A DNA stretch of 64,000 bases from Leeuwenhoekiella sp. (GTDB lineage: Bacteria > Bacteroidota > Bacteroidia > Flavobacteriales > Flavobacteriaceae): NCBI GenBank assembly GCA_002708845.1, contig PAPI01000036.1:62001-126000 (forward strand). The letters run 5' to 3'. The notes below the pieces were generated by a model, which searched no databases, was not told the origin of the DNA, and saw only the letters and a program-made list of their open reading frames with translations. This document shows positions 30,831 through 59,145 of the stretch, one piece after another. A program made the translations under genes and the position numbers. Within the stretch, counting starts at the first letter, position 1, and each line of letters opens with the position of its first letter.

Positions 30831-33800
30831 ATGAGCACAAAGTTCCCTGAATATAAAGGACTTGACCTGCCAAAAGTGGCCGAAGAAATTTTAGCCTACT
30901 GGCAGGAAAACGAAATCTTTGAAAAGAGTATCTCAACCCGCGAAGGTAATGAGCCCTACATCTTTTTTGAAGGTCCGCCATCTGCAAACGGAATGCCCGG
31001 TATTCACCACGTGATGGCACGTGCGATTAAAGATATTTTCTGTCGTTTTCAAACCCAAAAAGGGAAGCAGGTAAAGCGTAAGGCCGGTTGGGATACTCAC
31101 GGACTTCCGGTAGAGTTGGGTGTTGAGAAAGAACTCGGCATTACCAAAGAAGACATCGGTAAAAAAATAAGCGTTTCTGAATACAACGAAGCCTGTAAGA
31201 ATGCAGTAATGCGCTACACCGATGTGTGGAACAACCTTACTGAACAAATGGGGTATTGGGTAGATATGGAAGATCCCTACATTACCTACAAGCCCAAATA
31301 CATGGAAACGGTATGGTGGCTGCTTAAAAACATTTATGATAAAGGCCTTATTTACAAAGGCTACACGATACAACCTTATTCTCCTAAGGCAGGAACTGGT
31401 TTAAGTTCGCACGAACTCAACCAGCCCGGTACCTATCAGGATGTGACTGATACTACAGTAACAGCATTTTTTCCCCTGGCCCCCCAAGGGGGAAATGTGG
31501 AACGTTTCAAAAAGGCTTTCAAAATAAGTAAAAGCTCCCCCTTGGGGGGCGGGGGGGGATTTGGTTTTCTTGCCTGGACGACCACGCCCTGGACTTTGCC
31601 TTCTAACACCGCGTTGACGGTTGGGAAAAAGATCGATTATGTATTGGTTAAAACCTTTAATCAGTACACGTTTGAGCCTATTCAGGTGGTTTGTGCTAAA
31701 GCTTTGGTGGATAAACAATTCTCTAAAAAATTCTTCGTTGCTGAAAGTGAGGAAGATTTTACCAATTTCAGCGAAAAAGATAAAAAGATCCCATATCAAA
31801 TCGTAGCTGAATGCAAAGGCAGCGACCTGCTTGAGTTGCGTTACGAGCCGGTGATTGATTATGTGCAACCGCATGACAATCCGGAAAATGCATTCCGGGT
31901 GATTGCCGGGGATTTTGTAACTACTGAAGATGGTACCGGTATCGTGCATACCTCACCCACTTTTGGTGCAGACGATGCTATGGTAGCCAAACAGGCAGAG
32001 CCACCCGTACCGCCTATGCTTGTTAAAGATGAGAACGGAAACTTAGTACCGCTTGTAGACCTTCAGGGTCGTTTTCGTCCTGAGTTGAAAGAATTTGGAG
32101 GTAAATACGTTAAAAACGAGTATTACGACGACGGTGAAGCACCCGAAAAGAGTGTTGACGTTGAGATTGCGATTAAATTAAAGGAAGAAAACAAAGCCTT
32201 CAAGGTGGAAAAATACGTGCACAGTTATCCCAACTGCTGGCGTACCGATAAACCTATTTTATACTATCCGCTAGATTCTTGGTTTATCAAAGTGACCGAT
32301 GTACGTGATCGTATGCACGAGTTAAATTTAGGCATCAACTGGAAACCTAAAGCGACCGGAGAAGGCCGTTTCGGCAACTGGCTGGCTAATGCCAACGACT
32401 GGAATTTATCACGCTCGCGTTACTGGGGAATTCCGTTGCCAATCTGGAGAACAGAGGATGGCAAAGAGGAAATCATCATTGGTTCGGTTGCCGAACTAAA
32501 AGAAAAAATCACCGAAGCGATAAATGCCGGAGTGATGGATGCCGATCCGTTTGCAGATTTTGTGCCGGGCGACATGAGTGAAGCGAATTATGATTTAATC
32601 GATCTGCATAAAAATGTGGTAGATGAGATAAAACTGGTTTCGCAAAGCGGAAAAGTTATGCGTCGCGAAGCAGATCTGATCGATGTGTGGTTTGACAGCG
32701 GAAGCATGCCGTACGCACAATGGCATTACCCGTTTGAAAACAAAGAGAAAGTAGAAAAAACCTGGCGTAAAGCCGATTTTATCGCAGAAGGGGTTGACCA
32801 AACCCGTGGATGGTTTTATACCCTTCACGCGATTGCTACAATGACTTTTGACGATGTAGCGTATAAAAATGTAGTCTCAAACGGACTTGTACTCGACAAA
32901 AACGGACAAAAAATGTCGAAGCGTTTGGGTAATGCAGTAGATCCGTTTACGACGCTTAATACCTTTGGTCCAGATGCGACCCGCTGGTATATGATCAGCA
33001 ATGCAAACCCATGGGATAACCTGAAGTTTGATCTGGACGGGATTACTGAAGTACAACGTAAATTCTTCGGTACCCTTTATAATACCTATTCATTCTTTTC
33101 GCTTTATGCGAATTTGGATAATTTCAGCTATGCTGAAGAAGAAATTGCCTGGAAAGACCGCCCGGAGATTGACCGCTGGATTCTTTCAGAATTAAATACA
33201 TTGATCGATCAGGTAGATGCTTTTTACGCCGATTATGAGCCTACCAAGGCTACGCGTGCGATTTCAGATTTTGTGCAGGAAAACCTGAGTAACTGGTTCG
33301 TGCGTTTAAGTCGCCGCCGTTACTGGAAAGGCGAGTATGCGCACGATAAAATTTCGGCCTATCAAACTTTATATACCTGTTTGATTACGGTTGCAAAACT
33401 GGGCGCTCCGGTAGCTCCATTTTATATGGATCGTTTGTATAAAGACCTGAACGGATTAACCGGTCGCGAAGCTTCAGAAAGTGTACATTTGGCAGATTTT
33501 CCGGTGAGTGATGCTTCACAAATAGACCGCAGTCTGGAACGCAAGATGCAAAAAGCACAGACCATTTCATCGTTAACGCTTTCGCTTCGTGCAAAGGAAA
33601 AAATAAAGGTAAGGCAGCCTTTACAGCGTATTATGATCCCGGTTTTGGATGAGAGTCAGCGGGAAGAAATACTTTCGGTACAGGATTTGATAAAATCTGA
33701 GGTAAATGTCAAGCAAATTGAACTGATTGATGATGCTTCGGGAATCCTGGTGAAGAATATTAAACCCAATTTTAAGGTGTTGGGACCTCGTTTTGGAAAA

Positions 33801-34271
33801 GATATGAAGCTGGTAGCCGGTGCTATAACTGCTATGAGTGCCAAAGATATAGCCACTATTGAAAATGAAGGAAAAATCACGGTGGACATTAATGGAAAAA
33901 GTGTTATTTTGGCGCCCGAAGATGTGGAAATCACCTCTCAGGATATTGAAGGTTGGCTAGTTGCAAGCGGCGGCGGACTCACCGTTGCACTCGATGTAAC
34001 GCTAACCGAAGAATTGAAAAATGAAGGTATTGCCCGCGAACTGATTAATCGCATTCAAAACCTGCGTAAAGACAGTGGTTTTGAAGTAACCGATAAGATT
34101 GAAGTACAATTACAGCGTGACGGAAAGGTCGAGAAAGCCGTTAGCGAGAATTTAGACTATATAAAAATGGAAACGCTCACCGCAAAACTCGACGTTGCAG
34201 AGCAGGTTACTAACGGAATAGCTATTGCTTTTGATGATGTAGAAACAATATTGGCTATTAAAAAACAGTAA
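30831..34271 (+). CDS. ileS: Isoleucyl-tRNA synthetase, type 2, with GXHH signature and in-frame repeat insertion
   Basis: The protein is 1146 residues, longer than the roughly 940 residues of type 1 enzymes, and reads as a eukaryote-like type 2 IleRS ('DTHGLPVELGVEKELGI'). It charges tRNA-Ile. The class I HIGH motif position reads G57-I58-H59-H60 instead of HXGH. The KMSKS motif is 'QKMSKRLG'. The CP1 editing domain begins around residue 195; 'FLAWTTTPWTLPSN' follows. Immediately before it, residues about 214-246 are encoded by a palindromic repeat (31471-31559; Gly/Pro-rich ends around 'ERFKKAFKISK'). The reading frame is intact. It heads an operon with a DksA-like gene, a hypothetical gene and lspA. 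Confidence 0.96.
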   Translation: MSTKFPEYKGLDLPKVAEEILAYWQENEIFEKSISTREGNEPYIFFEGPPSANGMPGIHHVMARAIKDIFCRFQTQKGKQVKRKAGWDTHGLPVELGVEKELGITKEDIGKKISVSEYNEACKNAVMRYTDVWNNLTEQMGYWVDMEDPYITYKPKYMETVWWLLKNIYDKGLIYKGYTIQPYSPKAGTGLSSHELNQPGTYQDVTDTTVTAFFPLAPQGGNVERFKKAFKISKSSPLGGGGGFGFLAWTTTPWTLPSNTALTVGKKIDYVLVKTFNQYTFEPIQVVCAKALVDKQFSKKFFVAESEEDFTNFSEKDKKIPYQIVAECKGSDLLELRYEPVIDYVQPHDNPENAFRVIAGDFVTTEDGTGIVHTSPTFGADDAMVAKQAEPPVPPMLVKDENGNLVPLVDLQGRFRPELKEFGGKYVKNEYYDDGEAPEKSVDVEIAIKLKEENKAFKVEKYVHSYPNCWRTDKPILYYPLDSWFIKVTDVRDRMHELNLGINWKPKATGEGRFGNWLANANDWNLSRSRYWGIPLPIWRTEDGKEEIIIGSVAELKEKITEAINAGVMDADPFADFVPGDMSEANYDLIDLHKNVVDEIKLVSQSGKVMRREADLIDVWFDSGSMPYAQWHYPFENKEKVEKTWRKADFIAEGVDQTRGWFYTLHAIATMTFDDVAYKNVVSNGLVLDKNGQKMSKRLGNAVDPFTTLNTFGPDATRWYMISNANPWDNLKFDLDGITEVQRKFFGTLYNTYSFFSLYANLDNFSYAEEEIAWKDRPEIDRWILSELNTLIDQVDAFYADYEPTKATRAISDFVQENLSNWFVRLSRRRYWKGEYAHDKISAYQTLYTCLITVAKLGAPVAPFYMDRLYKDLNGLTGREASESVHLADFPVSDASQIDRSLERKMQKAQTISSLTLSLRAKEKIKVRQPLQRIMIPVLDESQREEILSVQDLIKSEVNVKQIELIDDASGILVKNIKPNFKVLGPRFGKDMKLVAGAITAMSAKDIATIENEGKITVDINGKSVILAPEDVEITSQDIEGWLVASGGGLTVALDVTLTEELKNEGIARELINRIQNLRKDSGFEVTDKIEVQLQRDGKVEKAVSENLDYIKMETLTAKLDVAEQVTNGIAIAFDDVETILAIKKQ
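31471..31559. repeat. Palindromic repeat element inserted in frame within ileS
   Basis: Two 15-nt arms are exact inverted copies: GCCCCCCAAGGGGGA at 31479-31493 and TCCCCCTTGGGGGGC at 31536-31550. They are separated by 42 nt and extended on both sides by C-runs and G-runs with imperfect pairing. The base composition is unlike flanking ileS DNA. The right arm shares the order AGCTCCC-CTT-G-run-C-G-run-GGAT with the right end of the intergenic element at 59051-59145. It is read in frame through the editing-domain linker. Confidence 0.8.
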
Positions 34272-59050: not shown

Positions 59051-59145
59051 ACATCCCCCTCCAAACTCTTTCCCGATCCTTCGGAGCGAAGGGAAGGTTG
59101 AGAATCAAGCTCCCTGCCTTTGAAGGGAGGGCTAGGGAGGGATGT
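59051..59145. repeat. Intergenic palindromic repeat related to the ileS insertion
   Basis: The 95-bp element begins ACATCCC and ends GGGATGT (inverted termini). An inner perfect stem CCTTCG-GAG-CGAAGG lies near its centre, and 'CTTTGAAGGGAGGGCTAGGGAGGGAT' type G-rich sequence forms its right end. It lies in the 201-bp region between the divergent pepP and BNR-repeat genes. Its right end has the same word order as the right arm inside ileS (31534-31559). Confidence 0.7.

Follow-up and report, generated by a model that had tools for sequence, protein, structure and literature searches.

How does a palindromic repeat come to lie in frame within an essential gene? The question is raised by ileS in the window, the whole 64,000-nucleotide stretch of Leeuwenhoekiella sp. 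DNA that was analysed (GCA_002708845.1, contig PAPI01000036.1, positions 62,001 to 126,000). We propose, at roughly even odds, that the ileS insert belongs to a flavobacterial family of homing-like, non-splicing elements with palindromic ends, in which it would be a short member lacking the nuclease. The features concerned are listed below in window numbering; G and L numbers are our handles for genomes and loci.

30831-34271, plus strand: ileS, isoleucyl-tRNA synthetase, 1146 aa, unbroken (open reading frame and NCBIfam match)
31472-31493, plus strand: left arm (half-repeat), coding for P215-G221, PLAPQGG
31494-31535, plus strand: centre, coding for N222-S235, NVERFKKAFKISKS; in the model, 222-229 form a short helix
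31536-31557, plus strand: right arm, reverse complement of the left arm
31569-31628, plus strand: 60 nt of ileS 3' of the insert, possible co-conversion tract
59051-59145, minus strand: intergenic inverted-repeat element of similar design and different sequence

The open reading frame 30831-34271 matches the NCBIfam ileS profile with 982 bits (cut-off 621) and is the only ileS match in this Leeuwenhoekiella genome. Both the exact 15-bp inverted arms and the uninterrupted frame claimed by the preliminary description were borne out: GCCCCCCAAGGGGGA (31479-31493) and TCCCCCTTGGGGGGC (31536-31550) are exact reverse complements, and the frame runs through the element. The extended arms (31473-31493 and 31536-31556) are 21 nt long, 90% complementary and spaced by 42 nt; the pair comes second among the 16 inverted pairs listed for the window (arms of at least 14 nt, at most 120 nt apart). 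As RNA, the 101 nt from 31465 to 31565 fold with -54.7 kcal/mol, compared to -37.8 +/- 3.3 for dinucleotide shuffles (z -5.05), none of the 200 shuffles folding as well. A phage search gave no match, and an Rfam search gave sub-threshold matches only, so that a known RNA family was rejected as the identity of the element (best 22.3 bits, threshold 44).

The element codes for about 29 residues (215-243), the right arm together with 31558-31559 specifying S236-G243 (SPLGGGGG). The "about 30 added residues" of the preliminary description thus hold for what is coded but not for the net gain, which is 10 residues over the sister species and 10-13 overall, since residues of an older loop were replaced. 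The loop of the window IleS (from DTT to LAWTT) has 37 aa; it has 27 aa in 8 of 12 Leeuwenhoekiella genomes and 24-25 aa in 97 of 138 distinct ileS rows. The IleS of L. blandensis, whose flanks are identical to those of G201 of the same genus, is 91% identical to that of the window. In an alignment with the IleRS structure 8c8w, NRDNEY alone stands where the loop is, and we therefore interpret the site as a tight hairpin turn where the CP1 editing domain begins. An AF2 model of the window IleRS, of modest overall quality (mean pLDDT 66.4, pTM 0.50) and used for the hairpin region alone, places strands at 207-216 and 244-250 and a short helix, formed by the centre, at 222-229; residues 235-241 have a pLDDT under 50. 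When translated, the ends of such elements give peptides rich in Pro and Gly (PLAPKGG, PPLGVRG, SSPLGGG); if these serve as linkers, the intervening segment would hang off the hairpin turn. A different ileS loop of 43 aa (KFYDYI..NNL), with no palindromes, is found in L124, L127 and L280-L283, including two named Flavobacterium species.

At least 196 genomes of the family have an ileS match; 32 loops were read (30 loci and two more). Among 152 ileS loci, seven gave no loop by the expression used, and seven of the remaining 145 were identical rows, leaving the 138 distinct ones. Inserts of the arm-centre-arm type, at the same codons and in the same frame, occur in 12 of these, with two further rows of decayed appearance; 14 of 138 is no frequency, because the set is biased to the best matches. 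The bearers are the window and G207 (same genus), G125, G138, G073, G135 (degenerate), Maribacter flavus, a Croceitalea MAG, HGW-Bacteroidetes-2, a Flavobacteriaceae MAG, Flavobacterium ichthyis and Flavobacterium sp. Ww15. Ten of the 12 have the strict C-run/G-run hairpin, the arms of L032 and L092 being imperfect. G205 and Zunongwangia mangrovi have the right arm alone, beside a loop of the ordinary type. The preliminary description had asked for an alignment of IleS from relatives; it had not foreseen that the same site would be filled in other genera too. It had also held that the same residues in distant IleS proteins, lacking DNA palindromy, would speak against an inserted repeat, and this was seen in part: L275 and L276, of another family, have the centre and no visible palindromes. 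We read these two as decayed copies, and they support as well the rival explanation that an xNSIxKAFxL loop allele entered ileS once as an old protein-level insertion, was subsequently lost or passed on by exchange of gene segments, and has arms that are a remnant or a later decoration.

The distribution of the insert counts against a single old entry. With the loop left out, an IleS tree (FastTree, 34 of 135 inner branches starred) requires 13 changes for the 14 insert rows, which were picked by eye (shuffled mean 13.5, 187 of 500 shuffles as low); starred branches force at least 10 of these changes. The rows with only a right arm (L056 and L069) were counted as insert-free, together with degenerate or differently armed loops including L083, L031, L039, L049, L143 and L064; 15 changes are needed once L056 and L069 count as inserts. 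In a genus tree based on the ileS and leuS flanks, the window species is nested within a set of species whose loop has 27 aa, and the two nearest to it, G200 (support 89/98) and G144 (83/99), are both without the insert. As these neighbours share a different, near-identical loop, the rival would require several losses to the same sequence. The right arms that stand next to ordinary loops in G205 and Z. mangrovi also count against it. Filled and empty alleles of both ileS and leuS coexist among 12 Leeuwenhoekiella genomes, and we infer that the lineage of the window gained the insert, rather than that the others lost it.

The centres lend support to the old-insertion rival. A motif close to [NK]S[IV]x[KD]AF is present in many inserts and is kept in L275 and L276. 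The centre DNA of the window matches that of G125, at a level reached by 0 of 1000 shuffles, and, more weakly, those of F. ichthyis (1/1000), G073 (5/1000) and HGW-Bacteroidetes-2 (9/1000), while nine of the 13 other insert centres do not match it (33-811 of 1000 shuffles as good), as the rival would have it. The centre of G207 matches those of F. ichthyis and HGW-Bacteroidetes-2 (0/1000 each). Third positions of the centre are about as diverged as those of the host gene (4 of 12 against 45%, and 7 of 12 against 47%), which agrees with an old insertion; therefore no recent donor is shown. Downstream of the insert, block 31569-31628 has five third-position bases found in none of nine sister species, compared to 0-2 in each of 30 other 60-nt blocks (single-block Poisson tail 0.001); in this same block G206 has three such unique bases, G199 two and the rest 0-1. 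No donor was found for this tract, and G125 and F. ichthyis were rejected as recent donors on account of both the third positions and the unmatched tract. Weighed against the recurrence and the nested position of the window, an old protein-level insertion appears unlikely. Another candidate, an ancestral loop trapped between two arms, was rejected as well: the best of ten sister-genus loops was equalled by 44 of 1000 shuffles for the window centre and the best of five by 131 of 1000 for G207, in a test that is weak owing to the 42-nt centre, the hand-cut centres and the single-base shuffles.

The palindrome-bounded family that we propose is supported by the dispersal of the arms. The preliminary description had suggested a repeat dispersed in the genome, and this holds for the half-repeat but not for the whole insert. 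A BLAST search of the genome with the latter recovers the insert, its two arms and otherwise short matches (the best of 22 nt, E 0.11), and the 12-mer CCCCCTTGGGGG occurs in ileS alone. The half-repeat YCCCCTRRCCCCCNAAGGGGGAA, with at most three mismatches, has nine copies, two in ileS, two in leuS and five at gene borders, and the reversed pattern none in the same genome. The further suggestion that such a repeat can land in genes is upheld by this dispersed palindrome lying in frame in essential ileS. The intergenic element at 59051-59145, which had been thought related, is similar in design only: genome searches with either element do not find the other, and its own best other place is 82% identical over 38 nt, with few weak matches elsewhere. 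Of 23 chosen genomes, 15 contain the half-repeat and all lack its reversed control. With at most three mismatches, and with the ileS copies themselves included, it is present in 12 of 15 genomes that have an ileS insert, half-insert or arm-like loop (absent in the other three) and in 3 of 8 genomes without one. An inverted partner lies within about 200 nt of 17 of 37 sampled half-repeats; 13 of these 17 are outside long open reading frames, where the elements formed are 81-151 nt long, close to the ileS insert in size. Ten of the 37 are inside long open reading frames, namely ileS, leuS or metH.

In leuS of this genome, half-repeats are located at the hairpin homologous to the ileS site, before VFTTRPDTIFG, and between them a 104-residue DUF559 domain (126.6 bits) is inserted in frame.

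L330 (G000:C9:500-5200): LeuRS, 1141 aa; in the region of residues ~280-430, DUF559 at 315-418, bracketed by half-repeats

Further on in the same LeuRS, before LELNTMPGWAGSSW, stands an arm-like segment, SPVGGDREGD, with similar ones in L206 and L228. Over 30 genomes the leuS turn holds a short loop, a DUF559 insert or another short sequence. DUF559 is present in 11 of the 29 loops extracted (one of the 30 was not) and in 7 of 12 Leeuwenhoekiella genomes, where six states of leuS were distinguished and 7 changes are needed. Turns without the nuclease elsewhere carry AATTC-, GTCACTTCGAGC-, GTCATTGCGAGC- and CACTGAGCGTAGCC-type sequences, which we take to be dispersed repeats. The leuS hairpins L244-L273 show AATTCAGAATTC runs and GTCACTTCGAGC, GTCATTGCGAGCGAAACGAAGCAATC and CACTGAGCGTAGCCGAAGTG types, with the look of dispersed repeats.

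MetH also has long versions, in which the arms bracket an in-frame DUF559; in metH of G213 (L219/L230) a single open reading frame contains a DUF559 insert at each of two sites, with half-repeats on both sides of either insert. The hosts named by Pfam, in eight proteins scanned, are LeuRS, MetH and RecG, together with fusions to HemD and HisD; further hosts were named by short motifs. Scores of the embedded or fused domains (PF04480) are 103-127 bits, against a cut-off of 20.6. Of 15 chosen genomes 14 have a DUF559 match, and so do 89 of 199 Flavobacteriaceae genomes when weak matches of 23-30 bits are counted; the insert-bearing draft G212 has no match and G210 one, of 29 bits. The ileS loops extracted, the longest of 53 aa, hold no DUF559, so the tie between ileS and the nuclease rests on the shared arms and the homologous site.

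Pfam names DUF559 as a family of unknown function; we take it to be a Vsr-like domain of the PD-(D/E)XK type, and 26 of 27 embedded copies conform to a loose D...ExD-type expression, the exception (L232) having been cropped wrongly. Its lineages are sorted by site. In a tree of 48 domains (quick method, 8 of 45 branches starred, 8 of 56 rows left out), seven site groups need 6 changes, the minimum, a value reached by none of 200 shuffles. The hemD, metH1 and recG copies each form one side of a branch; 2 changes are required for the free copies and 4 for the leuS copies, which are not one clade. The half-repeat, with at most five mismatches and within 330 nt of the middle of the locus, is found at 16 of 27 embedded copies (leuS 9/17, metH 7/7, recG 0/2, hisD 0/1) and, within the same limits, at 0 of 17 free copies, 0 of 7 hemD fusions and 0 of 30 Y1_Tnp loci (5 of 56 DUF559 rows left out); embedded and free copies differ with a Fisher value of 4.9e-5. 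A sequence-blind test for inverted ends was positive at 29 of 51 DUF559 loci, 3 of 80 random places and 1 of 30 Y1 loci. Since inverted repeats of other sequence surround 12 of 17 free copies (among L224-L243 and L312-L329), inverted repeats mark DUF559 loci generally, and it is the particular arm sequence alone that separates embedded from free copies. In recG, hisD and hemD, related DUF559 copies have other ends or no clear ones. A PADLOC scan gave nothing for the two host proteins; one free DUF559 weakly matched two models, one for a methyl-directed restriction enzyme (E 5.9e-5) and one for a homing endonuclease (E 1.5e-4).

The half-repeats invite comparison with REP/BIME sequences, which they resemble as GC-rich hairpins that occur in inverted pairs and at gene borders, some being intragenic. 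The second rival explanation is accordingly that the repeat is an ordinary REP/BIME-like one, spread by a RAYT (Y1, HUH) transposase, with ileS as a tolerant landing place. The dispersal in hairpin pairs (17 of 37 partnered) conforms to this, and the accessible part of PMC3733652 reports, in other bacterial groups, REPs inside genes, tRNA synthetase genes among them, as well as a GTAG or CGTC tag at one end of REPs with a RAYT. Y1_Tnp matches exist in 14 of the 23 genomes, but there is none in the genome of the window, and the half-repeat adjoins none of 30 Y1 loci (of 53 matches; 94,229 bases) against 16 of 27 embedded DUF559 loci. The association found is with DUF559, and on the 30 Y1 loci covered RAYT/Y1 is disfavoured as the partner. 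In some genera the centre moreover recurs along with the arms at one site, which also argues against a plain REP, and we regard this rival as improbable. Very improbable is a third one, in which the hairpin turns in the editing domains of IleRS and LeuRS accept in-frame DNA and common repeats accumulate there with no dedicated mechanism: the repeat-like sequences at the leuS turn and the few residues of 8c8w at the IleRS turn agree with it, but it predicts neither the sorting of DUF559 by site across genera nor the recurrence of some ileS centres, both of which are seen.

The evidence points to, though it falls short of proving, a homing-like mobile element retained in the protein, and the mechanism of the proposed family may be outlined as follows. 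Its members would enter housekeeping genes in frame, at places that code for permissive loops, and remain in the product, as the reading frame indicates for ileS. Two inverted half-repeats, each a C-run/G-run hairpin, would form the ends and would be read through as Gly/Pro-rich stretches (PLAPKGG ... SSPLGGG), possible linkers. In the long members, in leuS and metH, DUF559 would be carried in frame between these ends; as a putative nuclease it would cut the empty allele of its own site, and repair of the break would copy the element plus some flank. The short members of the ileS type would move by the same repair route, the nuclease being made elsewhere or once present and lost, which would make the ileS form a satellite or a deletion derivative. 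The wider proposal, to which we give somewhat less than an even chance, is a class of non-splicing homing elements with linker-like palindromic ends, DUF559 between them, site-specific lineages in LeuRS, MetH and RecG, and nuclease-less satellites in IleRS.

As in inteins and homing endonucleases, particular nuclease lineages here go with particular sites in conserved housekeeping genes, and filled and empty alleles occur within one genus; these elements differ in having palindromic-repeat ends, which also exist alone. Site-specific lineages were found for DUF559 at metH1, recG and hemD, with 4 changes for leuS; ileS, having no nuclease, does not lend itself to this comparison. Filled and empty alleles were found for ileS and leuS among the 12 Leeuwenhoekiella genomes. 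The Pfam matches of nine proteins scanned included no splicing domain, and no intein family was found in the window IleRS or the LeuRS of this genome (Pfam, E <= 0.001). The many copies inside LeuRS, MetH and RecG, or fused to HemD and HisD, distinguish the DUF559 set described here. In the parts of the literature consulted, a DUF559 gene is reported with inteins and placed in a homing endonuclease family, EDxHD (PMC9403480), and a DUF559 gene is linked with repeated transposase segments (PMC12308824); palindrome-bounded, non-splicing in-frame DUF559 inserts are not described in those parts, including that of PMC6399143. Repeats in synthetase genes (PMC3733652) and DUF559 as a homing-type nuclease (PMC9403480), as far as these sources were covered, are thus precedents.

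Rickettsia palindromic elements are short palindromic repeats that lie in frame in genes, and the preliminary description had invoked them as a parallel. The situation is indeed similar, with a dispersed palindromic repeat read through in an essential coding gene, a likeness of arrangement. The parallel ends where the present elements, of another phylum, fill one site repeatedly, consist of an inverted pair with a centre and have long nuclease-type versions. Intragenic RPE-4 and RPE-6 are mentioned in the accessible part of PMC3733652. The first interpretation of the ileS element is hence partly supported, and the palindromic arms around an in-frame DUF559, with no splicing, are an arrangement that goes beyond it. 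According to the usual view, in-frame mobile elements depend either on splicing, as inteins do, or on luck, as palindromic elements do; in the present case the ends encode linker-like peptides and the same structural loop is filled repeatedly in two related synthetases. If the proposal is true, it offers a testable role for many DUF559 copies, explains the length variation of IleRS, LeuRS and MetH, and shows how parasitic DNA can persist within essential genes when there is no splicing.

Outside the host genes, four of the five gene-border half-repeats of this genome directly adjoin a stop or start codon. The fifth, L337 (G000:C31:30293), lies between two genes, presumably ruvC and hemW, and seemingly extends both frames: the element appears to supply C-terminal residues of the ruvC-like gene and N-terminal residues of the hemW-like gene.
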